This document shows, piece after piece, positions 6,877-44,128 of a stretch of 54,832 nt of DNA; within the stretch, counting starts at the first letter, position 1, and every line of letters begins with the position of its first letter. The stretch covers positions 1 to 54,832 of the forward strand of contig CACIPU010000006.1 of NCBI GenBank assembly GCA_902588625.1, given 5' to 3'. Below the pieces are notes generated by a model that made no database searches, was not told the origin of the DNA, and worked only from the letters and a program-made list of their open reading frames with translations. The stretch comes from an uncultured Pelagibacteraceae bacterium. Lineage in GTDB: Bacteria; Pseudomonadota; Alphaproteobacteria; Pelagibacterales; Pelagibacteraceae. Made by a program: the position numbers and the translations under genes.

Positions 6877-7431
6877 TTATATAGAATAAGGTTTTCTACC
6901 AAATATTTTTCTAACAAAAGGCTTGAAATCTTTAAGTGTTAATGATTTAAAATTTGGATCAAATGATTTTTGGTCCCATTTTTCACAGAAATTTATAGTA
7001 TCATTATAATATTTATGCCCTTTGAATTTTTCTCGTTCATTCCTATTTCCACCCAGATGATGAGCAAAGTAATACATTTGAAATACTCCATGTTTTTCTA
7101 TTATCCAATGAGTCTTTTCACTTACATACGGTTTTAAAATAGCAGCAGCGCATTCAGCATGATTTAAAGGAGCTAACTCATCTCCAATATCATGCAATAA
7201 ACAGGCGACCACCATTTCATCACTGGCTTTTTCATTTAAAGCTCTTGTTGCTGTCTGGAGAGAATGTTCTAATCTAGTTATTTGATAACCTTCCAAAGTA
7301 TCTTTTAATCCACCCATGAACTTTAATAGTCGATCAGCAGTTCCATTTATATACTTTTGTTCATGTTTATCTAAAAAAAGATATTCTTCTTTGGTCCCAT
7401 CTTTCATTTGATTAAATTTTACTTTTTCCAT
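6877..7431 (-). CDS. HD-domain (TmpB/MIOX-like) putative mixed-valent di-iron oxygenase
   Basis: This 184-residue HD-domain protein retains all six expected metal ligands: His56 (LEHSLQTA), His80-Asp81 (LLHDIGD), His91 (NHAECAA), His114 (EKHGVFQ) and Asp153 (EKWDQKSFD). That pattern matches the HD oxygenases (PhnZ, TmpB, MIOX) that cleave C-P or C-C bonds. Its ATG overlaps the upstream dioxygenase gene by 13 bases, the pairing seen for TmpA/TmpB, which convert 2-trimethylammonioethylphosphonate to glycine betaine and phosphate. The PhnZ second-sphere Tyr-x-x-Glu pair is not at the same spacing here: the equivalent positions are Leu46 and Tyr49. The substrate may therefore differ, and a hydrolase role cannot be excluded. 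Confidence 0.72.
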   Translation of the reverse strand: MEKVKFNQMKDGTKEEYLFLDKHEQKYINGTADRLLKFMGGLKDTLEGYQITRLEHSLQTATRALNEKASDEMVVACLLHDIGDELAPLNHAECAAAILKPYVSEKTHWIIEKHGVFQMYYFAHHLGGNRNEREKFKGHKYYNDTINFCEKWDQKSFDPNFKSLTLKDFKPFVRKIFGRKPYSI

Positions 7432-8528
7432 TTTAAGTTAAACTTTCTTTCTAAATGTCTTAACTTTCCTTCAGTTGAATCATGGTCGATATAACATCCC
7501 TTTAAATATCTTTTACCTTCACTAACATCATAAGAAGTTCTTCCATGTAATAATCTATGATTATCCATCATTAATAAATCACCTTTTTCTAATCTAAATT
7601 TTATTTCAAATTTTGATGAGGCATAAAGATCAGCAATTAATTTTCTAGCTTCATAAAATTTTTTAAGTTCATTTTTTTCTAAAGCTGGCACATAATCTAA
7701 TCTTGTACTATATCTAACCTGTTTAACTTTATTATTTTCATCTAATTCAATTAATTCTCCCCAATTTTCAAGAATTATAGTTTTGTCAACAAACCTAAAT
7801 CTTACTTTAGTTTTCGTAAGTATTTTAAATAAATCTTCATGATTTTTTCTTAAATATTTTGCAACAGAAAAACCATCAACTAAAGTTGAAAAACCACCTT
7901 TCACTTCATTTTCAATACAGTGTAAGAGTTGTATACAAGGAATTGGTTTTCTATAAGGGTTATCAGTATGTGGAGTAAGAGCTATAGAAGTATAAGCTAA
8001 ATCATTGGGTTTTGGTACAGACCTAACACTAAATGACTCACCAAAGTTTGTTGGTCTAATTGTTCCAATAGAATTAGCAAAATTTACTATATAATTATCT
8101 TCCAGAGGAACATTTTTAAAAATTACAAAACCATATTTATAAAAATTTTGTAATAAATTATACATTTCTTTTGTTTCAAAAATATCTTTTTTGTATAGAG
8201 CCTTTGGCTTTTTATTGAGACTAGAATCCCATAAAACTATATTTTCCAAAGGTTCTTTTTTATTTATTTCATATAGCAAACTTTTAACTTCATATTCAAA
8301 TTTTACTCCGTCTGTAAATTCAATATTAAGGTGGCCATTATTCATTGATGCATTTTTTATTCCTAGTTTTTGATCAAGTTGAGATGGGTCATACAACCTT
8401 TGATCATTATACTTATCCACTAAATTTTCTGTTTTTGCTCTTTCTCTTAACCAAAGAGGATGTATTTCAAAGCTTTCATTTGAAAGGTTAACTAAAACAA
8501 CATTATTTTCTTCTATTTCTATTTTCAC
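7419..8528 (-). CDS. TmpA / gamma-butyrobetaine-hydroxylase-like 2-oxoglutarate Fe(II) dioxygenase
   Basis: This 369-residue protein has an N-terminal DUF971-like domain (IHPLWLRERAK...DQRLYDPSQLD) and a TauD-type jelly-roll domain. The iron triad is visible: HTD in TPHTDNPYRKP and the distal His in LLHGRTSYD. The family includes gamma-butyrobetaine hydroxylase, trimethyllysine hydroxylase and TmpA, all acting on trimethylammonium compounds. The N-terminal zinc cysteines of BBOX are absent (LRERAK instead of LRDNC). Translation probably starts at GTG 8528. The overlapping HD-domain gene downstream favours a TmpA-like role. The substrate is inferred, not proven. Confidence 0.78.
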   Translation of the reverse strand: MKIEIEENNVVLVNLSNESFEIHPLWLRERAKTENLVDKYNDQRLYDPSQLDQKLGIKNASMNNGHLNIEFTDGVKFEYEVKSLLYEINKKEPLENIVLWDSSLNKKPKALYKKDIFETKEMYNLLQNFYKYGFVIFKNVPLEDNYIVNFANSIGTIRPTNFGESFSVRSVPKPNDLAYTSIALTPHTDNPYRKPIPCIQLLHCIENEVKGGFSTLVDGFSVAKYLRKNHEDLFKILTKTKVRFRFVDKTIILENWGELIELDENNKVKQVRYSTRLDYVPALEKNELKKFYEARKLIADLYASSKFEIKFRLEKGDLLMMDNHRLLHGRTSYDVSEGKRYLKGCYIDHDSTEGKLRHLERKFNLKWKK

Positions 8529-13323: not shown

Positions 13324-14454
13324 TTAATTATTTTTTAAATAATTTAATCTTCCAATAATTTCATCGCGATCAATATAATAACCTTGTAAATGTCTGTGAC
13401 CTGAATTTGGATTAAAAGCAGTTCTTCCATGCAAAACTCTTCTATTGTTAAAGGAAAAGATATCACCAGGTTTTAACCTAAATTTAATTTGAAATTTATC
13501 ATCATGAAGTAAATTCCCGAATCTATGATGAGCTTTATAAACTTTTTCCATCAAATCAGGATTACAATCTAATACATCCATTGTAGCAACACTAAATCTT
13601 ATATCATTATAATCATTATCTTTAGTTAAGGAAATTGCTGGAGCATGGTAACCTCTGATTGACTCTTGTGTATAATCTTTATCTTTAAATTTAAAAGGAA
13701 CATTAACTAAAGTATCAAAAACTTCTTTTTCACTTTTTCTTAAATAATCTGCGACTGCAAATCCGTCTACCGCAGAAGAATCTCCCCCTTCTGCTGAATT
13801 AATTAGGCAATGTAAAAATTGATATCCTGGGGGAGTCTCAAACCATGGTAAATCCATATGATTACGTAAAGCATGTGCCGAATAAGCAGAGTTATTTGGT
13901 TTAGGAATATTAATAACTTCAAAGGGTGTTTTAAAAAAAGTTTCTCTTGTGTGGCTTATTCTATTTAATACGGGAAATGCAGATTCTTTTTCAATAGGTG
14001 TATTTTTGACAATAGCAATTCCTTTGTAATGTAGAATCTCTAACCATTTTATTAAACCTTCATCAGATGACATTATTTCATCATGTTCGATACTTATTGA
14101 ACTTAAATTTTTTTGAAGCAAACTATTCCAAAGTTTGTAGGGTGAGTTATATTTTTGTTTATTTTTTAAAGTATAACAATTTTCTCTAAGCCATTTTGGA
14201 TCAAAATAACTGGTATGATTTCCTTCACTCCATTCAATTACTAACTTACCTTCATCGTTGATTTGACAGTCTTTTGCTTTAATTTCTGTTGAAACTTCAA
14301 GAATATTAAACATCCTGTGCCTTGAGTCTTTATCATGCGCTGTAGGACAATTATCTCTTAACCAAAGATAATTAAAATTACTTTTTTCTCCATCAGCCCA
14401 AAAAATATCAATTGATGAACCGTTAACAGAGATTTTTGAAATATTTATCTCCAT
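13324..14454 (-). CDS. Gamma-butyrobetaine hydroxylase-like 2-oxoglutarate Fe(II) dioxygenase
   Basis: This 376-residue enzyme joins a DUF971-type N-terminal domain (YLWLRDNCPTAH, HRMFN) to a TauD jelly roll. The iron ligands are HMD in RNHMDLPWFE and the distal His in VLHGRTAF. PPGYQFLHCL and GGDSSAVDGFAVADYLR match bacterial gamma-butyrobetaine hydroxylases, which form L-carnitine in the cytosol using 2-oxoglutarate and oxygen. A Cys is kept in the LRDNC zinc site. It is divergent from a betaine-class ABC transporter, with an SDR and a BKACE gene beyond. That context favours butyrobetaine/carnitine breakdown. A different trimethylammonium substrate is possible. Confidence 0.82.
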   Translation of the reverse strand: MEINISKISVNGSSIDIFWADGEKSNFNYLWLRDNCPTAHDKDSRHRMFNILEVSTEIKAKDCQINDEGKLVIEWSEGNHTSYFDPKWLRENCYTLKNKQKYNSPYKLWNSLLQKNLSSISIEHDEIMSSDEGLIKWLEILHYKGIAIVKNTPIEKESAFPVLNRISHTRETFFKTPFEVINIPKPNNSAYSAHALRNHMDLPWFETPPGYQFLHCLINSAEGGDSSAVDGFAVADYLRKSEKEVFDTLVNVPFKFKDKDYTQESIRGYHAPAISLTKDNDYNDIRFSVATMDVLDCNPDLMEKVYKAHHRFGNLLHDDKFQIKFRLKPGDIFSFNNRRVLHGRTAFNPNSGHRHLQGYYIDRDEIIGRLNYLKNN

Positions 14455-14629: not shown

Positions 14630-15649
14630 ATGCAATTTCTTAAAAAATTAGGTCTTTCAGTATTGTTTGCTTCTGTATTAGCTCTAGGAACATCTAGTGC
14701 AAATGCTGCTTGCAAAGCAAGACTTGGAGACTTTGACTGGAGTAGTGCAAACATCCATACTGCAATAGCAGATTTCATTCTTACAAATGGATATGGTTGC
14801 CAAGTAGAAGTAACAAAAGGAAGTACTACACCAATTATGGCTGCTCACTACGATAAGCAGTTAGATGTAATTACTGAAGTTTGGTATGACAATATTATTG
14901 CTAATTATGAGCCCCACGTAGAAGCGGGTACAATTATGAATATTGGAGTTAATACACCAGACTCTCAGCAAGCTTTTTACGTAGATAAAACTACAGCTGA
15001 TAAATATGGTTTAAAATCAGTAGATGATATGAAAGATCCAAAAATAGCTGCGCTATTTAAAGATCCAGAAGATCCATCAAAAGGTAGAATGACTAGCTGT
15101 ATTTCAGGTTGGACTTGCTACACAGTAAACTTGGTTAAGCAAAAAGAGTATGGTCTAGATGAATTCTATACTAATTTTGATCCAGGTTCTGGTGGAGCAT
15201 TAGATGCTGCAATAGCAGGTGCTTTTGCTAAGAAAAAACCAATCTTTACATACTACTGGGCTCCAACTGGTTTAATGGGTAAAGTTGATCTAGTTAGATT
15301 AAAAGAGCCTAAATTTGATTCTGATTGCTGGAATAAAATGTCTGCTGTTGTAGAAGACATCAAAGCAAATGGACCAGATGCATATAAACCAAGCTGTGCG
15401 TGCGAATATAGAGATATGGCTTTAACAAAATCTGTTTTAACTGACTGGGCTAAAGCTCATCCAAAAGAAACTGAATTTTTAAAGAAATATACTATTCCAA
15501 CAGCTACAGTTAACAAAATGTTAGCTTTCTATGAAGACGAGTCAGATGGTGACATGGAATTAACTGCTAAACAGTTTTTAAAAACTGAAAGCATGTGGAA
15601 AAAATGGGTTCCAGCAGACGTTGCTAAAAAAGTAAGCGCGGCTCTGTAA
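14630..15649 (+). CDS. Betaine-class ABC transporter substrate-binding protein (OpuAC/ProX type)
   Basis: This is a periplasmic binding protein of 339 residues. Residues 1-26 form a signal peptide (AGAC-type hydrophobic core ending SANAAC). The mature part has the OpuAC fold of quaternary-amine binders, with DFDWSSANIHTAIADFIL and the EVWYDN segment contributing aromatic side chains expected for a cation-pi cage. Several cysteines, including CISGWTCYT and CACEYRD, probably form periplasmic disulfides. The Shine-Dalgarno GGGAGGG lies six bases upstream of the ATG. A terminator separates it from its permease, so the binding protein should be made in excess. The ligand could be betaine, carnitine or butyrobetaine. 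Confidence 0.9.
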   Translation: MQFLKKLGLSVLFASVLALGTSSANAACKARLGDFDWSSANIHTAIADFILTNGYGCQVEVTKGSTTPIMAAHYDKQLDVITEVWYDNIIANYEPHVEAGTIMNIGVNTPDSQQAFYVDKTTADKYGLKSVDDMKDPKIAALFKDPEDPSKGRMTSCISGWTCYTVNLVKQKEYGLDEFYTNFDPGSGGALDAAIAGAFAKKKPIFTYYWAPTGLMGKVDLVRLKEPKFDSDCWNKMSAVVEDIKANGPDAYKPSCACEYRDMALTKSVLTDWAKAHPKETEFLKKYTIPTATVNKMLAFYEDESDGDMELTAKQFLKTESMWKKWVPADVAKKVSAAL

Positions 15650-15670
15650 TCTAATATTAAAATAATTTTG

Positions 15671-15701
15671 AAAGAGCCCTTATATAGGGCTCTTTCTTTT
15701 T
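15671..15701 (+). terminator. Intergenic terminator between binding protein and permease
   Basis: AAAGAGCCC (15671-15679) and GGGCTCTTT (15687-15695) form a 9-base-pair stem with a 7-base loop, followed by C and five T. It probably terminates most transcripts after the binding-protein gene and protects its mRNA 3' end, with partial read-through to the permease and ATPase. Confidence 0.85.
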
Positions 15702-15720
15702 ATTAATCTTTGTTAAACAT

Positions 15721-16740
15721 ATGAAAAAAAATAAAAAACTATATATAAACTTAGGTTTATTATCATTTTTTATATGGTTATTAATTTTTAGTTATAACTC
15801 ATCAAAAAGAAAACCTGAAAATGTAGGAGAATTGCTAAACGATTTTTCTTGGCTGCATCAATGGCCTAAGTGGTTAGATTTACCTTTAATGAAATATATT
15901 AATATAGCTTTTAAAAAGTTAAATGAAAGTTATGGATGGATTTTCGAAGCAATAAATAATTTTTTACTTTGGCAGTTGATGACATTAAAAAATTTTTTAA
16001 TTTTAGCGCCGTGGCCGCTTGTAGTTCTAGGAGTAGCAGTAATAGCTTACTTTGCTAGCGGTCGAAAAATTGGAACAACTATTTTTGTGGGAGTATGTAC
16101 CTTTTTTATTGGCTTTTTACATCCAATTTTTTGGACAAAAGCAATAGAGACAACAGCAATAATGTTAATTAGTATATTTTTGTGTGTAATCTTCGGTATA
16201 CCTGTTGGAATTTTAATGGCAAGAAGTGAAAGAGTAAGAGATAAAATTCTTCCAGTATTAGATTTAATGCAAACAATTCCTGCATTTGTTTATTTAATTC
16301 CTGGTATCATGTTATTTGGTCTTGGTGCAGTTCCAGCAATTATCGCAACTTTTATTTATGCAGTACCACCATTAGTTAGATTAACTGATTTAGGAATTAG
16401 ATTGGTTGACAAAGAAGTTATTGAAGCCGCTGATGCTTTTGGTGCAGATAAAAAACAGAAATTATTTGGAGTTCAATTACCTTTAGCTCTTCCAAATATA
16501 ATGCAAGGAATAAACCAGGCGACCATGATGGCTTTAGCAATGGTAGTTATAGCTTCAATGATTGGAACAAGAGGTTTGGGGGATGAAGTTTTATTAGGTT
16601 TACAGCAATTAAATGTAGGACGTGCAGCTGAAGCAGGAATTGCAATTGTACTATTAGCGATTGTTTTAGATCGAATTACACAATCATATGGTGAAACACT
16701 CCAAGCAAGAAATATGCCAATAAAAAAGGAGAAAAAATAA
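15721..16740 (+). CDS. Betaine-class ABC transporter permease (ProW/OpuAB type)
   Basis: This is an inner-membrane permease of 339 residues. It has an N-terminal hydrophobic anchor (about residues 7-24), a linker and a C-terminal transport domain. The EAA coupling loop is recognisable at EAADAFGADKKQKLFGVQLPLALPNIMQG, followed by QATMMALAMVVIASMIG, both characteristic of ProW/OpuAB. It works with the binding protein upstream and the ATPase downstream. Its stop overlaps the ATPase start by one base, so the two are coupled translationally. Confidence 0.92.
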   Translation: MKKNKKLYINLGLLSFFIWLLIFSYNSSKRKPENVGELLNDFSWLHQWPKWLDLPLMKYINIAFKKLNESYGWIFEAINNFLLWQLMTLKNFLILAPWPLVVLGVAVIAYFASGRKIGTTIFVGVCTFFIGFLHPIFWTKAIETTAIMLISIFLCVIFGIPVGILMARSERVRDKILPVLDLMQTIPAFVYLIPGIMLFGLGAVPAIIATFIYAVPPLVRLTDLGIRLVDKEVIEAADAFGADKKQKLFGVQLPLALPNIMQGINQATMMALAMVVIASMIGTRGLGDEVLLGLQQLNVGRAAEAGIAIVLLAIVLDRITQSYGETLQARNMPIKKEKK

Positions 16741-17768
16741 TGTCAAAAATAGAAATTAATAATATTTATAAAATTTTTGGAAATAATCCTCAATCTGTCC
16801 TACCTATGGTTCAAGATGGAGCAAGCAAAGAAGAAGTGCTTGAAAAAACAGGTCACACAGTAGGTTTAGATAATGTTTCAGTTAAAATAGAAGAGGGAGA
16901 AACTTTTGTATGTATGGGTTTATCAGGATCAGGAAAATCTACCTTAATTAGACATATTAATAGATTAATCGACCCAACTTCAGGAGATGTGCTGGTAGAT
17001 GGACTCAATATAATGAACTGTGATCCGAAGCAGTTAATTGATTTTAGAAGACATAGTATTAGCATGGTATTTCAAAGGTTTGGCCTTTTTCCACATAAAA
17101 CTGTAATGCAAAATGTTGGTTATGGCTTAGAAGTCCAAGGAATAAACAAGGATGAAATAAATACAAGAGCTATGGAAAAAATAGAAGCAGTTGGTTTAAA
17201 TGGTTTTGAAAACCAATATCCAAGTCAATTATCTGGAGGCATGCAACAGCGAGTAGGATTAGCTAGAGCATTAGCAACAAATACAGATATTATGTTAATG
17301 GATGAAGCATTTAGTGCACTCGACCCTTTGATTAGAAGTGATATGCAAAAACAATTAATTGATTTACAAGCAGAATTAAAAAAAACAATAGTATTTATAA
17401 CTCACGACTTGGACGAGTCTTTGAGATTGGGCGATCATATTGCAATTTTAAATGCAGGAAAATTAGTTCAAGTTGGAACTCCTGTTGAAATTATTATGAA
17501 CCCGGCCGATGAATATGTAAAAGCATTTGTTAAGGATGTAAACAGAGCTAAAGTAGTTAAGGCTAAAATAATAATGACACCAAGTAATCAATTTAAAGGT
17601 AAAGATAAATCCAATAATAGAATTAAAGTAGGTGAGGATCAGTTTTTAGAGGAATTTTTATCTAAAATTGTTTGTAGCGATACGACAGTTGAAGTTGTTG
17701 ATAAAAAAGGTGACATAAAAGGTTATATCACAAATAAAGAATTGGAAACTTCATTAGTAAAGTCATAG
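16740..17768 (+). CDS. Betaine-class ABC transporter ATPase (ProV/OpuAA type)
   Basis: This is the cytoplasmic ATPase of the transporter, 342 residues. The Walker A GLSGSGKST lies near residue 60, the signature is LSGGMQQR and Walker B is IMLMDEAFSALD, followed by the switch His in FITHDLDES. An N-terminal extension of about 35 residues before the core is normal for ProV. The C-terminal 80 residues are a regulatory CBS-like tail (VEVVDKKGDIKGYITNKE), shorter than two full CBS domains. It ends the transporter operon; the SDR starts four bases later, so it may be co-transcribed. Confidence 0.93.
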   Translation: MSKIEINNIYKIFGNNPQSVLPMVQDGASKEEVLEKTGHTVGLDNVSVKIEEGETFVCMGLSGSGKSTLIRHINRLIDPTSGDVLVDGLNIMNCDPKQLIDFRRHSISMVFQRFGLFPHKTVMQNVGYGLEVQGINKDEINTRAMEKIEAVGLNGFENQYPSQLSGGMQQRVGLARALATNTDIMLMDEAFSALDPLIRSDMQKQLIDLQAELKKTIVFITHDLDESLRLGDHIAILNAGKLVQVGTPVEIIMNPADEYVKAFVKDVNRAKVVKAKIIMTPSNQFKGKDKSNNRIKVGEDQFLEEFLSKIVCSDTTVEVVDKKGDIKGYITNKELETSLVKS

Positions 17769-18566: not shown

Positions 18567-19454
18567 TTATTTATGTTTTTTAAGTTTTAATTTTTCTCTT
18601 GTTTCGGCTGGGGTCATTATTGATGAGCCTAAATCTTCAATAATTCTAATAGCTTTTTCCACTAATTGAGCATTTGTTGCTAATTTTCCTTTAGATAAAT
18701 ATAAATTATCTTCAAGTCCTACTCGGGGATTTCCACCCATCACTACAGTTTGAGCTACATAAGGCATTTCATTTTTTGAAATTGCAAACCCAGACCAGAT
18801 AGCTTCTTTAGGCATAATATCTATCATTGCCTGCATTGCTAATGGAGTTGCTGGAGCTCCCCACGGAATACCTAAACACAATTGAAACATTGGAGGATCA
18901 CTTAATAATCCTTCCTTATATAGTTGTGAACCAAACCACATATTTCCTAAATCAAAAGCTTCTATTTCTGGCTTTACACCAATCTCTTTTAATTTTTTTG
19001 CAGCTTTTCTTAAATCATTAGGAGTATTTACTGTAATAACAGAACTATCACCAAAATTTAAAGTTCCACAATCTAAAGTACAAATTTCTGGAAGTAATTG
19101 TTCAGCATTAGCAATTCTTTCCATTACATTAGCCATATCTGTAAGTGGACCAAACTCTAGGGGGTTTTTTCCTTGTCCAATATCTAAATCACCACCCATC
19201 CCTGTTGTTAAGTTTAATACTACATCTGTGTCACTAGACCGAACAAGATCAACTACCTCTTTGTATAATTCAATTCTTCTACTTGGTTTACCATCATCTT
19301 CTCTTACATGGATATGCGCAATTGCTGCACCAGCTTTTGCAGCTTCAATTGCTGCAGTAGCTATTTGTTTTGGTGTTTTGGGTAGATCAGGATGTTTTTT
19401 TGCTGTATCGCCTGATCCAGTAACCGCACAAGATACAAATACGTTTTGATTCAT
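18567..19454 (-). CDS. Beta-keto acid cleavage enzyme (BKACE/DUF849), probable dehydrocarnitine cleavage
   Basis: This is a zinc-dependent BKACE-family enzyme of 295 residues. It condenses a beta-keto acid with acetyl-CoA to give acetoacetate and a new acyl-CoA. The metal histidines are His47 and His49 in AHIHVRED, and LNLTTGMGG and FDLGNMWFG are family blocks. Members acting on 3-dehydrocarnitine release betainyl-CoA, which a thioesterase turns into glycine betaine. A hydroxylase, betaine-class transporter, dehydrogenase and hotdog thioesterase within 7 kb support that substrate here. Other BKACE substrates such as 3-keto-5-aminohexanoate remain possible. Confidence 0.87.
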   Translation of the reverse strand: MNQNVFVSCAVTGSGDTAKKHPDLPKTPKQIATAAIEAAKAGAAIAHIHVREDDGKPSRRIELYKEVVDLVRSSDTDVVLNLTTGMGGDLDIGQGKNPLEFGPLTDMANVMERIANAEQLLPEICTLDCGTLNFGDSSVITVNTPNDLRKAAKKLKEIGVKPEIEAFDLGNMWFGSQLYKEGLLSDPPMFQLCLGIPWGAPATPLAMQAMIDIMPKEAIWSGFAISKNEMPYVAQTVVMGGNPRVGLEDNLYLSKGKLATNAQLVEKAIRIIEDLGSSIMTPAETREKLKLKKHK

Positions 19455-20509: not shown

Positions 20510-20971
20510 ATGCTTTTAAAAACTGAAAAAGTAATCAAGGAATGGACAGACTACAATGGTCACTTGAACGTTGCTTTTTACGTACATGTTTTTGATATAG
20601 CTGCAGACATAATGTTAGATAATTTTAAGATGGGCGGTCATTCAGCAAAGCAAGATAAAAAAACTACATTTGTTGCCGAAATGTATACAGCATATAAACA
20701 GGAAGTTAGATTAGGAGAAGAGGTAGAAACACATTTAACTTATGTTGATCATGATAAAAAAAGAATTCACTACAGACTTTCAATGTTTAATAAGGAAAAA
20801 AAATATTTAGCTGCGACAAATGAAGTTTTATCTTTATATGTAGATCTAAGCAAAAGAAAAGTTGTTGAGTTTGGACAAGATAGACTAAAACTAATGGATG
20901 AAACAATTAAAGCAAATTCGTTAAATTTTAAATCTGATAATTTATTTTTTTCTCATAAATTGAAAAAATAG
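20510..20971 (+). CDS. Hotdog thioesterase (4HBT family), candidate betainyl-CoA thioesterase
   Basis: This is a 153-residue acyl-CoA thioesterase. The motif WTDYNGHLNVAFYVHVFD carries the catalytic Asp and the conserved GHxN-x3-Y of the 4-hydroxybenzoyl-CoA thioesterase family. The middle shows YVDHDKKRIHYRLSMFN. Thioesterases of this type hydrolyse betainyl-CoA in carnitine operons of Pseudomonas and Sinorhizobium, where they sit next to BKACE genes. Here it lies about 1 kb from BKACE, with one unrelated gene between. It meets the next gene tail to tail with no spacer. Substrate assignment is contextual. Confidence 0.82.
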   Translation: MLLKTEKVIKEWTDYNGHLNVAFYVHVFDIAADIMLDNFKMGGHSAKQDKKTTFVAEMYTAYKQEVRLGEEVETHLTYVDHDKKRIHYRLSMFNKEKKYLAATNEVLSLYVDLSKRKVVEFGQDRLKLMDETIKANSLNFKSDNLFFSHKLKK

Positions 20972-22190: not shown

Positions 22191-23774
22191 CTACCTATTT
22201 AATATTGCATCAGATGCTTTTTCTGCAATCATAAGTGTTGGAGCGTTTAAGTTTGCGCTAGGAATTTCTGGCATTACAGAAGCATCTACCACTCTAATGT
22301 TTTCGAGTCCATAGATTTTAAGATTTTCGTCAACCACAGCCATTTTATCTATTCCCATTTTTAATGTTCCACAAGGGTGGTAAGCTGTTTCGGCGTTAGA
22401 TTTAATATATTCATTTAATTGCTCATCGCTTTGTTTATCTTCACCTGGACCAATTTCTCTTCCAGAATGTTCAGCCAAAGCAGGTTGTGACAAAATTTTT
22501 CTAGCTACTTTAATACACTCTCTTGTTTGTTTTAAATCATCTTCATCTTCCAGATAATTAAATAGTATTTTTGGATAATCATAGGGATCTGATGAATTTA
22601 ATTTAATATACCCTCTGCTTCTCGGGTGATTTGGGCTTGCGTGTAATTGATAACCGTGGGATTTCGGATTAACTAAACCATGATCAATAACAAAAGAAGG
22701 AAAAAAATGAAACTGGATATTAGGTATTTTTCGTTCCGGAGAAGATTTTGCAAATCCTCCAGCTTCTAAATACGATTGAGAGCAAGGTCCTGTTTTAGAT
22801 AAAAACCATTGAATACCAGCAAGAACCTTAGGAATTAATTTAGTGTATTTGTAAAGTGTATTTGGAGTTTTGCATTCTTGTTGAACATATGTTTCTAAAT
22901 GATCTTGAAGATTTTTTCCAACCCCTTTTAAATCATTAACAACACTTATTCCCTTTTCTTTTAAATGATTAGCATCCCCAACTCCTGAAAGCATTAATAG
23001 TTGTGGTGAGTTAATTGAACCTCCGCTAAGTATTATTTCCTTATGAGCATAAAATTTTTCAATTTTATTTTTAATTTTTACTTCAATACCTACCGCTTTT
23101 TTTCCATCAAAAATAATTTTTTCTACAAAAGAATTAGAAAAAATATTCAAATTTTTTCTTTTTTTAACGGGATTTAAATAATATTTTGAAACACTTGCTC
23201 TTTCTCCATTATGTATTGTGGTATCAAACATTCCCATTCCTTCTTGAAGTTCGCCATTCATATCAGCATTAATTTTATGGCCAGCTTCAGAAGAGGCATT
23301 TAGAAAAGCACCAAATAAAGGATTATTATTTTTAGATTGGTTTACAGGTAGCAATCCTAACGCACCTCTATATTGATTTTCACCACCCGACCAGTTTTCT
23401 ATTTTTTTAAAGTATGGAAGAATTTTATCATATGACCAAGATTTTAAGCCAAAACTTTCCCATCTTTCGTAATCATTTTTATTTCCTCGCACAAAAACCA
23501 TACCATTATGAGCTGAACATCCTCCAATCATTTTTCCCCTAGGACAAAATAATCTTCTATTATTTAAATTTGGTTCAGGTTCAGAATAGTACTTCCAATT
23601 ATATTTTGGGTCATGCATTGTATATAACAAAGCCAAAGGCATCTTAACTTTCCAGATATCACTTGATTTACCTGCTTCAAACACAGCAACTTTATCATTT
23701 TGGTTTTTTGACAATCTATTCGCAAGCACACATCCTGCTGATCCAGCTCCAATTATTATATAATCAAACGTCAT
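22191..23774 (-). CDS. betA: GMC oxidoreductase, probable choline dehydrogenase
   Basis: This is an FAD-dependent GMC-family enzyme of 527 residues, predicted to oxidise choline to betaine aldehyde at the inner membrane surface. The dinucleotide motif DYIIIGAGSAGCVLANRL is at the N-terminus. GMC signature 1 lies around GGCSAHNGMVFVRG and signature 2 around GSINSPQLLMLSGVG. The catalytic histidine is in AYHPCGTLKMG and the C-terminal block is VVDASVMPEIPSANLNAPT. Its ATG overlaps the upstream PhnZ-like gene by four bases (ATGA). Operon mates demethylate betaine, which supports choline, although other GMC alcohols are possible. Confidence 0.87.
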   Translation of the reverse strand: MTFDYIIIGAGSAGCVLANRLSKNQNDKVAVFEAGKSSDIWKVKMPLALLYTMHDPKYNWKYYSEPEPNLNNRRLFCPRGKMIGGCSAHNGMVFVRGNKNDYERWESFGLKSWSYDKILPYFKKIENWSGGENQYRGALGLLPVNQSKNNNPLFGAFLNASSEAGHKINADMNGELQEGMGMFDTTIHNGERASVSKYYLNPVKKRKNLNIFSNSFVEKIIFDGKKAVGIEVKIKNKIEKFYAHKEIILSGGSINSPQLLMLSGVGDANHLKEKGISVVNDLKGVGKNLQDHLETYVQQECKTPNTLYKYTKLIPKVLAGIQWFLSKTGPCSQSYLEAGGFAKSSPERKIPNIQFHFFPSFVIDHGLVNPKSHGYQLHASPNHPRSRGYIKLNSSDPYDYPKILFNYLEDEDDLKQTRECIKVARKILSQPALAEHSGREIGPGEDKQSDEQLNEYIKSNAETAYHPCGTLKMGIDKMAVVDENLKIYGLENIRVVDASVMPEIPSANLNAPTLMIAEKASDAILNR

Positions 23775-24307
23775 ATAAGCTTAGAGATTAAAAGATTTTT
23801 ATATTCATTTATGGATTTAATTTTTAATCCAGATTTTTTTGCCATTTCATCAAACTTTCTTAACTTAATAGAACTTTCAAAAAACTGATTAGTCTCAAAT
23901 TTTTTAGATTCTTCATTACTCATTATTCCACCTTGCATTTTTAAACTTATTTTAGATGCCCTTGATAATAAACTATAATATTTTCTCTCTCTCGCTAAAT
24001 ATCTTTTCGCTTTAACATGATATTTGATTGGTCCAAGCACGTCTTTAGAAAAATATTTTTTTAAAAATTCATAACCTACGTCTTCATGTTTTCCATCTTT
24101 ATTTTTTTTAACTAAATCATAAGGATTTTCTAAAATGAAATGTCCATAATCATGCAGAAGACTTGAACATATAAGATTACTAGAACTATTTTTTTCTTCC
24201 GCTATCATTGCAGTTTGTATCATATGTTCACTCATAGTAACTTTTTCACCTATATAAAGAGATGTATTACTTAAAAAATTAGATGTAATTTGATCAATTA
24301 TTCTCAT
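23771..24307 (-). CDS. PhnZ-like HD-domain organophosphonate oxygenase
   Basis: This 178-residue protein follows PhnZ along most of its length. PhnZ oxidatively cleaves the C-P bond of 1-hydroxyphosphonates with a mixed-valent di-iron site. The ligands are all kept: His28, His52-Asp53 (LLHDYGH), His74, His97 (IKYHVKAKRYL) and Asp153 (LRKFDEMAKK). The substrate-gating pair Tyr18/Glu21 (YIGE) is also kept, as is the phosphonate-contacting Lys101. The MQGGIMS block matches PhnZ too. It overlaps betA by four bases and follows a TauD-type dioxygenase by nine. Together these suggest release of phosphate from a choline-like phosphonate. Confidence 0.85.
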   Translation of the reverse strand: MRIIDQITSNFLSNTSLYIGEKVTMSEHMIQTAMIAEEKNSSSNLICSSLLHDYGHFILENPYDLVKKNKDGKHEDVGYEFLKKYFSKDVLGPIKYHVKAKRYLARERKYYSLLSRASKISLKMQGGIMSNEESKKFETNQFFESSIKLRKFDEMAKKSGLKIKSINEYKNLLISKLI

Positions 24308-24316
24308 TAGCTAAAA

Positions 24317-25144
24317 CTAATTAGGTCGATCACCTTCAATAGCTATTCTATCCATAATTCTTTCATAACCTAAACCTCTTCCAGGAAAAAAATCAGCAAT
24401 AGCATAATGTAAAACACTTCTATTATCCCAAATTGCAATAGCATTTTCAGTCCATTGAAATCTACAAGTTAAATCTAAACGAGCTTGATGTTCAAAAATT
24501 TTTTTTAATACTTCTTCACTTTCTGTTTTTTCTAACCCAATTATTTGTTTTGTGTAAGTCCAGTTTACATATAATATTTTTTTTCCAGTTTCTGGATGTG
24601 TTCTTACAATTGGATGAGTATTAGAATATTCATCAATATTTCCATTCCCTTCCATTGATTTGTAATCTTTTACAAAAAAAGCTGCACCCAGAGAACTATG
24701 TACTGCTTTTTTATCTTCGACTTTTTCTTTTATATTTCTATCGAGCGTTTCCCAAGCAAGCTCCATATTTGAAAAAACAGTATCTCCCCCAACAGGAGGT
24801 ATTTTAATCGATTTTAAAATTACAGCTTTTGTAGGTTTAAGATTGTAACTTACATCACTATGCCAATTCTCTCCCCACTGGTTTTTTTCATTTGGATCTT
24901 TAATTATTCTAACTATTTCTGGATGGTTTTCACGACCTTTAACATAAGCATGTTTTTCAAGGGGTCCAAATTTTCTTGCCAAAGTTTTATGTTCTTCTGC
25001 TGTAATTTTTTGATCCCTAAAAAAAATAACTTTGTGCTCTAAGAGTAAGTCATTAATTGTTTTAAAATTTTTATCAGATGAATCTTTAAGATTTATTCCA
25101 TTAACTTCTGCTCCAAGAGCACCGGAAAGTAATTTTATATTCAT
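24317..25144 (-). CDS. TauD/TfdA family 2-oxoglutarate Fe(II) dioxygenase
   Basis: This is a 275-residue TauD-fold dioxygenase. The iron motif is HSD in ENWHSDVSYNLKPT, with the distal His in RSVLHYAIAD and the 2-oxoglutarate Arg in GLGYERIMDR. The N-terminal GALGAEVNGINL and VIFFRDQKIT are standard TauD blocks. In known phosphonate systems the HD oxygenase PhnZ is paired with PhnY*, a different dioxygenase type, or TmpA. Here a TauD-type enzyme sits directly before the PhnZ-like gene and could hydroxylate the alpha carbon. It follows the dimethylglycine dehydrogenase by 33 bases. A sulfonate or ether substrate is an alternative. Confidence 0.88.
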   Translation of the reverse strand: MNIKLLSGALGAEVNGINLKDSSDKNFKTINDLLLEHKVIFFRDQKITAEEHKTLARKFGPLEKHAYVKGRENHPEIVRIIKDPNEKNQWGENWHSDVSYNLKPTKAVILKSIKIPPVGGDTVFSNMELAWETLDRNIKEKVEDKKAVHSSLGAAFFVKDYKSMEGNGNIDEYSNTHPIVRTHPETGKKILYVNWTYTKQIIGLEKTESEEVLKKIFEHQARLDLTCRFQWTENAIAIWDNRSVLHYAIADFFPGRGLGYERIMDRIAIEGDRPN

Positions 25145-27604: not shown

Positions 27605-28651
27605 CTAAAGAGTTTTTGCAGCATCAGTATTGTGCTTCTTTAATGTTTTATCAGTACCATGCGCATAGTGTTTAGACATGTCAGGATAAAATTTATAAGA
27701 AATTGGTTTTCTTCCAAGAGCAACCGCCATTTCTCTGACATGGTGAGGCTCTGCACCACAACAAATTCCAATAAAGTTTATTTTTTTTTCAGCACATTCT
27801 TTCGCAAATTGAGCCATTTCAAATCTATTACAATATTTATTATCTAGGGCAACAGGAAAGGCATTTCCACCAGGTATACAATCACAACCTTCATCAGTTT
27901 GATTTAAAAAACCAGGCTCTTTTTCAGTCGTTCTATAAGGCACCGGTAAAGCCGCAACATGACAAGAAACACTTTTTCTGATTTCTGGTAAAAGTTTCAT
28001 AGTCATTTTTGGGCCTCTAAAACAGTTTAACCCAACAACATCTGCACCATTATCTTCTAGTATTTTACATGCATCACCAGGAGAAAAACCATCTCTAGTT
28101 TTGCCATCTCTTCTGAATGCATAATTACATACTGCTATTAATCCAGCATCTTTAATAACTTTTAGTGCAATTTTCATTTCTTCTACCCAAGTAATTGTTT
28201 CAGCAACTATAAAATCAACACCTGCTTCTTTTGCCCAAGCAACTTGTTCTTCAAACATTTTCTGACATTCAGTATTGCTTTTTTTATCATTTGGGTCATA
28301 AACATTTGTATTAGCTACATCTCCACAAACCATTAGATCTAGATCTTTAAATTCTTTTTTAGAATCTTTTGCTATTTGTAGTGCATTTTTTTGAAGAGGT
28401 TCAAGAAGTTTTTCTTTTCCTATTATTCTCAATTTTTCTCTATGACCATAGTAAGTGAATGCCTGAATAATATCGCTTCCGGCCCTTATAAACTCTCTAT
28501 GTAATTGAGAAACTACTTCTGGGTGTTCTAAAACTACTTCTGGAACAAAAGCTCCAGCTGATAAATATCCTCTTCTTTCCATTGCAAAAAGGTATCCTTC
28601 TGCACAAAGAACAGGTCCTTTATTAAGTCTTTCTATTAAATTTTTACTCAT
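27605..28651 (-). CDS. Betaine-homocysteine S-methyltransferase family enzyme (second copy)
   Basis: This is a BHMT-family enzyme of 348 residues, clearly paralogous to 5395-6480. Zinc cysteines are in GLNCFRGP and GICCGAEP, and the shared blocks GPVLCAEGYL and AFTYYGHREKLR are aligned. It heads the minus-strand operon with the dimethylglycine dehydrogenase-like gene, TauD, PhnZ and BetA, with GGAGAGAAA before the ATG. No SAM riboswitch is visible in the 230-base upstream spacer. This copy therefore looks like the catabolic enzyme, while the other serves methionine supply. A different methylated donor for one copy is possible. Confidence 0.9.
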   Translation of the reverse strand: MSKNLIERLNKGPVLCAEGYLFAMERRGYLSAGAFVPEVVLEHPEVVSQLHREFIRAGSDIIQAFTYYGHREKLRIIGKEKLLEPLQKNALQIAKDSKKEFKDLDLMVCGDVANTNVYDPNDKKSNTECQKMFEEQVAWAKEAGVDFIVAETITWVEEMKIALKVIKDAGLIAVCNYAFRRDGKTRDGFSPGDACKILEDNGADVVGLNCFRGPKMTMKLLPEIRKSVSCHVAALPVPYRTTEKEPGFLNQTDEGCDCIPGGNAFPVALDNKYCNRFEMAQFAKECAEKKINFIGICCGAEPHHVREMAVALGRKPISYKFYPDMSKHYAHGTDKTLKKHNTDAAKTL

Positions 28652-40403: not shown

Positions 40404-41753
40404 TTAGCTCCAAGGAAATGGGCTATGTGAAGAAGGATGAAGTTCACCCTTCACGTATCGGTTGAATCTAAATGGTTTTAATAATTTACTTTCTTGTCCA
40501 AGAATTTCGTCAGCTACAAGTTGACCAACCCCAAGCATTTTATAACCATGATTTGAATCTGCAATAATATAAACATTTTCACAGAAACGATCAAAGATAG
40601 GAAAAGAGTCTGGAGTAAAACAACCTAGTCCGCCAGATGGCACTCTATTATATAAATTAGATTTCCCTTCAAATCTTTTTTGACAGTGCGCTAAAGCTGA
40701 TGACCACATGTCAGCAAATTTTTCGTCTGTTTGATATTCTTTTGATGCAGTTCCATATGGGTCAACTTTTACTTCATCTAATGGTTTATGTACTTTGTAC
40801 GGAGCTGCACCACCCTGAACACCAAGAGATTCACAAATATCTGGTTTGTAATAAATACCCCACATTTTATCTGTAATTAAGGAACCATCCTTATCAGAAT
40901 ATAATGGCGCATCACTATCCACATGAACAAGAGGAGGCATTTCTCCACTATCCGTTTTAAAATAATCCATTCCTACTTTCATCACACCTTCTTGTAGAAA
41001 CCAATATTTCCACATTGGAAAATCTTTATGCGTTTTTCCTTTTTCATCTTTAATTTCTATTTTATTTGATAGTTCAAGCATATTCCAAATACTTCTAACC
41101 CACGGACCAACACCAACAATAACTTGATCACATTCTATCAATCCTTTTGATGTTTCTACACCTGTTATTGCATTGCTATTACTTCCTCTTTTAAATCCAG
41201 TTACCTCAACTCCTGTTATAATTTTTGCTCCCGCAGCTTCTGCTTTTTTAGCAACACCTTTTATCGCTACTTTATTTTTTGAATAACCTCCACGTTTTTC
41301 ATGAAGTATATTTGTTATATCTTTTGCTTGCCAGTCACTAAAAATTTTTTTCATATACTTAGTACATTCTTTTTCACCTACAATAAATTCTGATTCATAT
41401 CCAATATTTTGTTGTTGTTCATAAATTGTTTCAACATCTTTTCTCATACTTTCAGGACTAATTTGCAAATATCCAACTGACTCATAAGACCATAATTTGG
41501 GGTCACTTTCCCATAACTCAACACTGTGAGCCATTAACTCCCTCATTGCTGGTTGAAAATAATTATTTCTTACAACTCCACATGCAATTCCACTTGCGCC
41601 TGCAGCAACTGAAGATTTATCTATAACAACGATATCATTTTCTTTAACACCACCATTTTTTTTTAATTTTTCTCCTAGATGCCAAGCAGTACTTAAACCA
41701 TGTACTCCTGCTCCAATAACTACATACTTTGCTTTATTTGGAATTTTTGTCAT
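40404..41753 (-). CDS. FAD-dependent DAO-family oxidoreductase (sarcosine oxidase beta-like), amine substrate unknown
   Basis: This is a 449-residue flavoprotein. YVVIGAGVHGLSTAWHL binds the ADP part of FAD, VAAGASGIACGVVRNNYFQPAMRELM resembles the SoxB substrate region, and ADSNHGYKMLGVGQLVADEI is the C-terminal flavin block. It would oxidise an N-methyl amine. Its ATG overlaps the TMAO demethylase gene by four bases, so it most likely acts on the next metabolite: dimethylamine, methylamine conjugate or N-methylglutamate. No DmmABC-type dimethylamine monooxygenase is seen here, which makes this gene a candidate substitute. Confidence 0.82.
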   Translation of the reverse strand: MTKIPNKAKYVVIGAGVHGLSTAWHLGEKLKKNGGVKENDIVVIDKSSVAAGASGIACGVVRNNYFQPAMRELMAHSVELWESDPKLWSYESVGYLQISPESMRKDVETIYEQQQNIGYESEFIVGEKECTKYMKKIFSDWQAKDITNILHEKRGGYSKNKVAIKGVAKKAEAAGAKIITGVEVTGFKRGSNSNAITGVETSKGLIECDQVIVGVGPWVRSIWNMLELSNKIEIKDEKGKTHKDFPMWKYWFLQEGVMKVGMDYFKTDSGEMPPLVHVDSDAPLYSDKDGSLITDKMWGIYYKPDICESLGVQGGAAPYKVHKPLDEVKVDPYGTASKEYQTDEKFADMWSSALAHCQKRFEGKSNLYNRVPSGGLGCFTPDSFPIFDRFCENVYIIADSNHGYKMLGVGQLVADEILGQESKLLKPFRFNRYVKGELHPSSHSPFPWS

Positions 41754-44083
41754 GACTTTACTTTTGTTTTGCCCGGATCATAAAATGGAAAGCTAACAAC
41801 TTTAGCTTTAATTCTTTTTTGATGTCCATCAAGTTTACCAATTTCAACATTTGTACCTATATCCGAATATTTAACATCCATTCTGCAAAGTGCAATATTT
41901 TTATTTAAGGTGGGAGATATCATTCCACTAGTAATTAGGCCTACTGTAGCACGCCCAACGTGTACCCCATCTCCATTAATAGCTTGTTCTTTTCCAATTA
42001 ATTCTAGTCCAACCAATTTTTTTTGAGGAGTTTCTTTTCTTTTAATTAATGCTTCTTTACCGACAAAATCATCCGCTTTTGTTTTTAAAGGCACTGCAAA
42101 CCCAATTCCAGCTTCAAATGGATCTGTTTGATCATTAAATTCGTAACCATAAAAAATAAGTCCAGCTTCGATTCTAACCATATCTAAACCCTCTAAACCC
42201 ATTGGTGTTATGCCCAAATCTTTTCCATGTTTAAATACTTTTTCCCAAACTTTAGAAGCATCTTTTGGATGACACCAAATTTCATAACCTAACTCTCCAG
42301 TATATCCAGTTCTAGATACAATAATTGGTATACCAACATGATCATCTATTCTTGCAATTGCAAATCTAAACCATTGAAGTTCATTTATTGTTGGTTGTGT
42401 AGGAGGTGTCCAAACAAATTTTTCTAAAATTTTTCTACTATTAGGACCTTGTACAGAAATATTATGTATTTGATCTGTAGAAGATTTAACCCAAGCTTTA
42501 TATTTTTTTTTCTTTGAAAGTTCTCTTAACCAGGTACCACCATATTCTTGCCCTCCAATCCATCTAAAATTATCTTTGGCTAAACGAAAAATTGTCCCAT
42601 CATCAATCATTCCTCCATTTTCGTAACACATAGCAGAATAACTAACTTGACCAATAGCAATTTTTTTTACATTACGAGTTAATGCATACTGCATTAAATT
42701 TTCAGAATCTGGACCAACTATTTCAAATTTTCTTAAAGGTGACAAATCAATTGCAATAGCTTTCTCTCTACATGCAGTATATTCTTTTATAGTTCCATAG
42801 TTTGTATAGTTATTTGCCAACCAATAACCATTATAATCTACAAAATTTCTACTTAGCTTGGATGTATTTTTATGAAATCCAGTTTCTTTTGTTAATTTAG
42901 GTTCCGAGTCTTCTTTCATTCTAAACGCTATCGCTTTCGAGTATTTTTGCTCTTTAGGATAAATTCTAACAAAAATATCTGTTGGATTCCATCCATTTGC
43001 TGGATCAACATCACAGGGGCAAGCAGAAGATGCACAAATTAAATCTTTTGTTGCTCTAAATAATACATAATCACCTGGTCTAGACCAAGGCTCGTCAAAA
43101 GAAGCAACATTTAATTGATTTATACTTGTGTTAAAAAAAAGATTAATAGCTATCCAACCTTTTCTAGGCTTTACCTCATAGCTTTTAAAAGCTTTACTAA
43201 AATTATCTGAACAGTTTATATGACCAAAATATCCCATATCCTCGTAATATTTTGAGGTACAAGCATAGTTAAAAGTATCATGTCTACCCACAGTATCTCT
43301 AACAACTTCGATCATTGGATCATGATACGCATCATAAAATTTTGAAAATAAACCTGGAGCTGGGTAGGCCGCACCCATAAAAGTACGAGTAGCCGTAGGA
43401 TCAATTATACTTTCAATTCCTTTATCTAATTTAGCTTTGTCAAAAGTTAAGAAATCTGAGCACTGTCTTCCAGCAGGATCTATGATTTGAATATACTCTC
43501 CTTTTTTTACTTCATATATTTCAGCCGTACGTCTTTTAACTAGTTTTTCAAAAGAAGGGTCTCCAAGAGGATCAGGTAAAAGGAATTGTTCTTCACTATC
43601 TTCAAATTTAGATTTATTAAGAAAAATAGTTAGATCTGTTGGAGGATTCTGCTCATGTACATTCATAGCGTCCCCAGGTGCAGCAAGCATAACTATACAT
43701 TTGTCTTTTGCTGTTAAAATTATTTTTTCACCCACCAAACAATCTTTATCAAATATTATTGATGATTTTACTTTGTTAAAATCAATATTCTTACGTTTAA
43801 ATAATTTTGAAATTTTTTCATCTTGCAGAATTGCTTTTTTTGAAAAATTACCATCTCCGTTTTCACTTAAATTTAAAATCGATAAATCACATTTACCTTT
43901 AGAATTAAAAACTATTACTTCACAAATTTGCTTACCTTCATCATTAATTATTTCTACTTTATCTTCTGCTAAAACTTCTATAACTGAAAGGCCTCCACCT
44001 TGAACGAAGTATCTTTCAACTCCTGGTGGTAAAGTTCTTAGTCCAGGGTTTTTTATATCAAGACTAGTTGAGGCATTATCCAT
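41750..44083 (-). CDS. tdm: Trimethylamine N-oxide demethylase (DUF1989 plus GcvT fusion)
   Basis: This protein of about 777 residues has an N-terminal pair of DUF1989-like domains and a C-terminal GcvT folate-binding domain (about 400-775). That fusion is the architecture of Tdm, which splits TMAO to dimethylamine and formaldehyde and passes the one-carbon unit to tetrahydrofolate. The cysteine-rich metal segment SACPCDVDPANGWNPTDI and an upstream Cys in NYACTSKYY fit the Zn-thiolate site. ATG 44083 is preferred to a TTG at 44092. It is divergent from a TMAO-class ABC transporter, which strongly supports the role. Confidence 0.87.
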   Translation of the reverse strand: MDNASTSLDIKNPGLRTLPPGVERYFVQGGGLSVIEVLAEDKVEIINDEGKQICEVIVFNSKGKCDLSILNLSENGDGNFSKKAILQDEKISKLFKRKNIDFNKVKSSIIFDKDCLVGEKIILTAKDKCIVMLAAPGDAMNVHEQNPPTDLTIFLNKSKFEDSEEQFLLPDPLGDPSFEKLVKRRTAEIYEVKKGEYIQIIDPAGRQCSDFLTFDKAKLDKGIESIIDPTATRTFMGAAYPAPGLFSKFYDAYHDPMIEVVRDTVGRHDTFNYACTSKYYEDMGYFGHINCSDNFSKAFKSYEVKPRKGWIAINLFFNTSINQLNVASFDEPWSRPGDYVLFRATKDLICASSACPCDVDPANGWNPTDIFVRIYPKEQKYSKAIAFRMKEDSEPKLTKETGFHKNTSKLSRNFVDYNGYWLANNYTNYGTIKEYTACREKAIAIDLSPLRKFEIVGPDSENLMQYALTRNVKKIAIGQVSYSAMCYENGGMIDDGTIFRLAKDNFRWIGGQEYGGTWLRELSKKKKYKAWVKSSTDQIHNISVQGPNSRKILEKFVWTPPTQPTINELQWFRFAIARIDDHVGIPIIVSRTGYTGELGYEIWCHPKDASKVWEKVFKHGKDLGITPMGLEGLDMVRIEAGLIFYGYEFNDQTDPFEAGIGFAVPLKTKADDFVGKEALIKRKETPQKKLVGLELIGKEQAINGDGVHVGRATVGLITSGMISPTLNKNIALCRMDVKYSDIGTNVEIGKLDGHQKRIKAKVVSFPFYDPGKTKVKS

Positions 44084-44128
44084 ATATAACAAGGACTATA
44101 TCAGTGTGACAAAAGTATGCAATTCAGT

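Follow-up and report, generated by a model that had tools for sequence, protein, structure and literature searches.

A TauD-type dioxygenase, a PhnZ/TmpB-type HD-domain oxygenase (hereafter HD) and a choline-dehydrogenase-like GMC oxidoreductase form a real, widely conserved operon in SAR11 bacteria. GMC is its constant member, and TauD and HD probably do not form a dedicated pair, because they have been gained and lost separately. In the reading that we favor, to which we assign a probability of about 0.5, HD would be an oxygenase of the TmpB-like, C-P-cleaving kind that was added to the glycine-betaine island of SAR11, and TauD would be a separate dioxygenase.

A conserved operon and its place in the glycine-betaine island

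The window, by which we mean the whole stretch of 54,832 nucleotides analyzed here, comes from a SAR11 (Pelagibacteraceae) genome, a 990-kb draft that is 78% complete. The three genes and the related features around them are as follows:

25144..24317, minus strand: TauD-type Fe(II)/2OG dioxygenase (TauD), 275 aa, of a SAR11-specific lineage (PF02668, E 1e-58)
24307..23771, minus strand: PhnZ/TmpB-type HD-domain mixed-valent diiron oxygenase (HD), 178 aa, predicted to cleave alpha-hydroxyphosphonates
23774..22191, minus strand: GMC-family oxidoreductase (GMC), choline-dehydrogenase-like, 527 aa
25178-27601, minus strand: dimethylglycine/sarcosine-dehydrogenase-like protein (DMGDH), by its Pfam domains (DAO-FAO_M-GCV_T)
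27605-28651, minus strand: BHMT-type homocysteine S-methyltransferase (PF02574, E 4e-41)
20510..20971, plus strand: 4HBT thioesterase of the betainyl-CoA-thioesterase type (PF13279; matches the thioesterase part of PRK07531)
18567..19454, minus strand: BKACE-type beta-keto acid cleavage enzyme, putatively for the step from carnitine to glycine betaine
14630..17768, plus strand: ProX-ProW-ProV type betaine/choline ABC transporter, a candidate quaternary-amine importer
13324..14454, minus strand: gamma-butyrobetaine-hydroxylase-like dioxygenase of the same island (TIGR02409, 320 bits against a cut-off of 414.75)

The reading frames of TauD, HD and GMC are all open at these positions on the minus strand, with nine bases between TauD and HD and a four-base overlap between HD and GMC, which bears out the tight packing described in the original prediction. 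A scan of GTDB genomes returned 80 HD loci, all of them in Pelagibacteraceae (SAR11); 74 carry TauD, HD and GMC in the same order and on the same strand, and most of the others lie at contig ends. This conservation goes far beyond chance, since HD and GMC share four bases, no more and no fewer, in 79/79 loci, and the distance from TauD to HD stays between -50 and +9 bases in 75. The TauD-PhnZ-BetA synteny that the prediction proposed to survey is therefore widespread in SAR11 and not unique to one genome. We also dropped the idea that HD was inserted into a TauD-GMC operon in the window's genus only, as the triple was found family-wide.

Among family genomes at least 90% complete, GMC is present in 18/18 that carry TauD and 10/10 that carry HD. 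The gene had been named betA; its score exceeds the cut-off of the choline-dehydrogenase subfamily model PRK02106 (732 bits against 605) but not that of the betA equivalog TIGR01810 (665.8 against 732.1 bits), which corrects the name to choline-dehydrogenase-like.

Directly upstream of TauD in the window, on the same strand, lie the DMGDH and BHMT-type genes. That the operon holds them is thus correct for the window but not as a general feature, since among the SAR11 loci compared they adjoin TauD in just part of the window's genus. In 53 other SAR11 loci the gene immediately 5' of TauD encodes the betainyl-CoA-type thioesterase, and BKACE and associated genes follow farther out; this thioesterase is the upstream gene in most SAR11 loci and belongs to the carnitine-to-betaine route. 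SAR11 Bhmt has been treated elsewhere (PMC12478193). We assign the BKACE label from sequence family and from a conserved position beside carnitine dehydrogenase in relatives, and an enzyme of this name is part of the glycine-betaine island of Arctic SAR11 described in 2025 (PMC12421898). The published island order matches our loci L239 and L240, and the relatives L239-L254 show it as well. Betaine transporter, carnitine, BKACE, thioesterase and choline dehydrogenase genes follow one another in conserved order in the island. The window holds most of them, though with their order partly changed, and we identified no carnitine dehydrogenase in it. The ProX match is under its cut-off (83 bits), and the transporter is conserved in the island. 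The setting in relatives, made up of thioesterase, BKACE, carnitine dehydrogenase and betaine transporter, agrees with the published one.

The HD-domain oxygenase

The roles of the active-site residues of such HD enzymes are established from the structure of PhnZ. The window's HD keeps the metal ligands H28, H52, D53, H74, H97 and D153 (the H...HD...H...H...D pattern), Y18 and E21 of the YxxE loop, and the phosphonate-contact residues H56, K101 and R150, along with Ser118 and Gln125 (for residue roles see PMC8177086); the earlier count of six metal ligands plus Tyr18, Glu21 and Lys101 was thus accurate. Catalytic, metal and phosphonate-contact residues are invariant in 84/84 SAR11 copies from the same slot, the position before GMC. 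The nearest PDB sequences are TmpB (6npa, E 1.5e-29) and then PhnZ (4mlm, E 1.4e-23), and a predicted model of HD (pLDDT 84) matches the two folds about equally (TMq 0.86 and 0.85, respectively). Because of this invariance and of the likeness to TmpB and PhnZ, HD is very probably an active alpha-hydroxyphosphonate oxygenase, and the claim that it is an intact PhnZ/TmpB-type enzyme holds at the level of sequence.

Profile models ranked TIGR03276 (166 bits, cut-off 214.6) above TmpB (NF049941; 152 bits, cut-off 300) and TmpB above PhnZ1 (NF052439; 127 bits, cut-off 300), HD being under the cut-off in each case. SAR11 HDs linked to TmpA likewise fall short of the TmpB cut-off, at 154-158 bits. 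Residue Met29 is of the TmpB type; residue 156 (PhnZ 164) is Gly in TmpA-linked HDs and Ala in TauD-linked ones. We counted this Ala for Gly, and the 152 bits against the 300 of the TmpB cut-off, against the favored reading. HD is likely TmpB-like in function; we do not file it as TmpB because it reaches neither the curated cut-off nor a TmpA neighbor. As the original prediction had noted, PhnY* is absent beside HD: neither a PhnY*-type gene nor a true TmpA gene adjoins it in the window locus, where the neighbors are TauD and GMC.

Six of the 60 relatives, all six in the genus, encode a true TmpA (532-551 bits in the four that were scored, against a cut-off of 400), and every one of them has HD. 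HD adjoins TmpA in two of them, where TmpA reaches 532 bits with its model and 452 bits in a match to the TmpA of the PDB; in the other four the sole HD found is the copy in the TauD slot, and in three of these four, with both flanks of TmpA read, no HD lies on either. In our tree the SAR11 HDs form one clade (support 99) in which TauD-linked copies are sister to copies at the TmpA locus; the clade falls outside the main TmpA-linked one, on long branches and with an unsure placement that we also counted against the favored reading. Since there are TmpA genomes with a slot HD only, and since the sister branch lies beside TmpA, the simplest reading of these sequences gives the slot HD the ability to work as a TmpB.

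We found no TmpA orthologue in the window's genome (78% complete), and the hydroxyphosphonate would therefore come from TauD, from the TmpA-like enzyme at 7 kb, or by import. The TmpA-like pair at 7 kb is indeed separate, as had been claimed; the HD of that pair is without the Lys and Arg that bind phosphonate. Two further genes near the slot were considered as the missing hydroxylase: a 2OG oxygenase (v4), which is not constant, is a possible candidate, and an aldolase (v3) was rejected as it is of the HpcH/HpaI type. None of the 14 HD-carrying SAR11 genomes tested contained a PhnD-type phosphonate binding protein, which makes betaine-type transporters the more likely uptake route for the substrate of HD.

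Our wider comparison took in 289 Alphaproteobacteria genomes, 66 with a Phn-HD match. Nineteen HDs adjoin TmpA in the loci read, and none lies beside a TauD. Relatives of HD were absent from viral contigs, for which reason we rejected a phage-borne origin, and phage records gave one weak match; plasmids held HD relatives only below 60% identity and no TauD match.

Marine surveys would assign such a gene differently. Pelagibacterales sequences, which make up 45% of marine phnZ, have been counted as 2-aminoethylphosphonate (2-AEP) catabolism, and among the genes of that catabolism phnZ is the one most widely found in surface waters (PMC9381506); phnZ has also been divided into subclades, with the 2-AEP form rare (PMC8316502). 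That HD is a PhnZ for 2-AEP, or a PhnZ1 for methylphosphonate, would agree with this usage, with its position within the Phn-HD group and with the tolerance of PhnZ for several R-hydroxyphosphonates (PMC10574752). We nevertheless regard this as improbable, given the higher score with TmpB than with PhnZ1 (152 against 127 bits), the TmpB-type Met29, the absence of PhnY* and a phosphonate transporter beside HD, and the betaine-gene setting.

TauD and its relation to HD

The roles of the substrate-pocket residues of E. coli TauD are well established. We compared this pocket (sequence checked against 1gqw) with 100 TauDs of the SAR11 order. The equivalents of the HxD...H iron triad (H99, D101, H255) and of the 2OG-binding Arg (R266) are invariant, as befits the superfamily, and those of the anion-binding His70 and Arg270 are retained. 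Four positions are replaced in 100/100 sequences: Tyr73 by Val, Asn95 by Gly, Asp94 by Trp and Phe206 by Tyr. Trp90, Glu92 and Tyr197 of TauD are conserved. SAR11 TauD thus lacks Y73 and N95, the residues that contact the amine of taurine; Gly95 is frequent across the wider TauD family, so the pocket pattern is only partly special. The taurine-dioxygenase equivalog PRK09553 is the closest NCBIfam entry and is missed (220 bits, cut-off 313). That closeness speaks for an ordinary taurine dioxygenase standing next to HD for operon convenience, HD itself having drifted to a non-phosphonate role. We consider this very unlikely: Val and Gly replace Y73 and N95 throughout, on which grounds we dropped the plain taurine dioxygenase, and the phosphonate-contact residues of HD are invariant.

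The pocket residues are the same in genomes with and without HD, which points to one TauD substrate across all genotypes, with an anionic end and without the amine contacts of taurine. Elsewhere in the class, the next relatives (42-47% identity) are not linked to HD and give no functional clue. A second family of the order has orthologues (67-74% identity) in ten genomes, of which five lack HD; they lie at a strictly conserved locus that differs from the SAR11 slot. The neighbors there are EamA and alkylsulfatase-like genes, suggestive of sulfur-ester chemistry. We lean to a non-phosphonate primary substrate for TauD, because in a genome without HD the product of phosphonate hydroxylation by TauD could go no further, while a sulfonate or sulfate ester would decompose by itself.

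Reading the slot in 198 family genomes revealed four states: TauD-HD-GMC, TauD-GMC, HD-GMC and GMC alone. Eleven genomes (92-99% complete) carry TauD-GMC with no HD anywhere in the genome, and three (93-99% complete) carry HD-GMC with neither TauD nor TmpA; the latter three also count against the favored reading. Ninety-two of the family genomes are at least 90% complete and 32 of these carry GMC: both genes are present in 6, TauD only in 12, HD only in 4 and neither in 10. Given GMC, TauD and HD are not associated (odds ratio 1.25, p=1), nor clearly so when less complete genomes are added (odds ratio 2.75, p=0.19); the unconditioned association (p=0.003) arises because both reside at the slot. 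These p-values are rough, as the genomes are related to one another. The comparison at genus level includes several incomplete genomes, which we likewise counted against the favored reading. On the GMC tree, the presence of HD changes at least 4 times and that of TauD at least 2 times.

These data weaken the original prediction, which saw in TauD and HD the best candidate in the window for an undescribed enzyme pair, and do not support an obligate pair: each adjoins GMC without the other, and they are independent given GMC. A dedicated pair, in which TauD would hydroxylate a choline-type phosphonate at C1 for cleavage by HD and so replace TmpA in SAR11, is possible but doubtful. It would account for TauD lying directly 5' of HD in 74/80 SAR11 loci, for the absence of a TmpA orthologue from most TauD-HD genomes, the window's included, and for a TauD pocket with the anion site (H70 and R270 equivalents) kept and the amine site rebuilt. 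It sits poorly with the eleven genomes (at least 92% complete) that hold TauD without HD in the same slot and the three (at least 93% complete) that hold HD without TauD, with the lack of association given GMC, with TauD at another locus in another family, with a pocket unaffected by the presence of HD, and with the finding of no TauD-HD pair elsewhere in the class.

Proposed route and comparison with known systems

In the favored reading, with HD as a TmpB-like enzyme of the glycine-betaine island, the locus would be an island variant whose one slot before GMC accommodates several optional front-end enzymes. From sequence and setting we infer the substrates of HD and TauD, the product, and any hand-over between the two enzymes. 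HD may cleave an N-methylated aminoethylphosphonate that carries an alpha-hydroxyl group, with (R)-1-hydroxy-2-(trimethylammonio)ethylphosphonate as the most likely substrate; the products would be glycine betaine and phosphate. This betaine would join that formed from choline by GMC and an aldehyde dehydrogenase; betaine derived from carnitine through BKACE and the thioesterase would enter the same pool, and BHMT and DMGDH would demethylate it. TauD might act on a small zwitterion other than taurine, anionic at the head and both cationic and bulky at the other end; trimethyltaurine or choline sulfate, for example, would yield betaine aldehyde. In genomes without TmpA, TauD may also produce the hydroxyphosphonate for HD.

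If much of the marine Pelagibacterales phnZ is slot HD, counts of 2-AEP catabolism would be partly misassigned, and the enzyme would more likely act on an N-methylated phosphonate, with release of glycine betaine and phosphate. Phosphonate turnover would then be linked with how SAR11 manages glycine, methyl groups and energy, and not solely with the scavenging of phosphate. Genomes with TauD only, with HD only and with both occur naturally and allow direct testing of the roles of both enzymes. Among the papers searched, none joins phnZ, Pelagibacter and choline dehydrogenase.

TauD resembles E. coli TauD in its fold, iron triad, 2OG-binding Arg and anion-binding His and Arg; it differs at Y73, N95, D94 and F206, changed to Val, Gly, Trp and Tyr and invariant as such in the SAR11 lineage. 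A 2023 review recognizes four versions of the oxidative phosphonate pathway (PMC10574752). The locus shares with PhnY*/PhnZ (2-aminoethylphosphonate) and PhnY/PhnZ1 (methylphosphonate) the oxygenase superfamily, the catalytic residues and an adjoining Fe/2OG enzyme, but has no adjoining phytanoyl-CoA-hydroxylase-type PhnY* and no phosphonate transporter, and lies among betaine genes. The Arctic island is alike in order, with BKACE, class II aldolase, thioesterase, SMR, a dioxygenase termed BBOX(2), choline dehydrogenase and a DMT transporter; by gene order, BBOX(2) would correspond to the TauD of the window. The published text mentions neither an HD oxygenase nor a phosphonate, whereas HD stands between dioxygenase and choline dehydrogenase in the window.

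TmpA/TmpB of Leisingera caerulea turn 2-(trimethylammonio)ethylphosphonate, which is of the choline type, into glycine betaine and phosphate (PMC10574752, PMC8177086). The original prediction had proposed a route from such a phosphonate to betaine and phosphate; it fits the choline/betaine setting, but is not new, being the TmpA/TmpB pathway. The dioxygenase of the window is TauD-type, unlike the BBOX-like TmpA, and its HD is under the cut-off of the TmpB model. The two systems are alike in an HD with the YxxE loop, six metal ligands and phosphonate-contact residues, in glycine betaine and phosphate as likely products, and in sister SAR11 HDs that stand beside a true TmpA.

Candidate oxygenases and a demethylase elsewhere in the window

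Two further regions of the window, both on the minus strand, are of note:

6877-7431 and 7419-8528, minus strand: TmpA-like dioxygenase/HD gene pair (TmpA model score, residue alignment)
41750-44092, minus strand: trimethylamine N-oxide demethylase (1151 bits, over the cut-off of 1100)

In the 7-kb pair, the dioxygenase scored 342 against the TmpA model's cut-off of 400; this dioxygenase is widespread across Pelagibacteraceae. Aligning the residues of its HD partner revealed that the metal ligands are kept, and that Asp, Gln and Glu line up with the His, Lys and Arg with which PhnZ and TmpB contact the phosphonate. The substrate of this pair is probably not a phosphonate. With the demethylase, the window has a further methylated-amine route.

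TmpA in SAR11

Within the genus of the window, a bona fide TmpA is present in six SAR11 genomes (loci include L255, L256, L257, L030 and L032), with copies 73-77% identical to that of genome G011; the four that were scored reached 532-551 bits, versus a cut-off of 400. Their neighbours are EamA and 3-hydroxyisobutyrate-dehydrogenase-like genes, and no HD gene lies beside TmpA in three loci (L255-L257).

An internal stop splits the TauD of G019 (L027, 844-1670), a genome that also carries TmpA; this split may reflect redundancy, or possibly an assembly error.

Phn-HD genes beyond the family

A different Phn-HD gene, ~42% identical, occurs in a second family of Pelagibacterales (L035, L036, L038, L237, L238), near phosphonate genes (the phnC/phnD transporter and the phosphonoacetaldehyde hydrolase phnX); its top-scoring model is hydroxymethylphosphonate dioxygenase (188 bits, cut-off 300). 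In Alphaproteobacteria other than SAR11 (L209, L220), genes for another BBOX-like dioxygenase, the second, and for a BKACE-type protein come after TmpA-HD, which ties TmpB to carnitine/betaine genes outside SAR11 as well.
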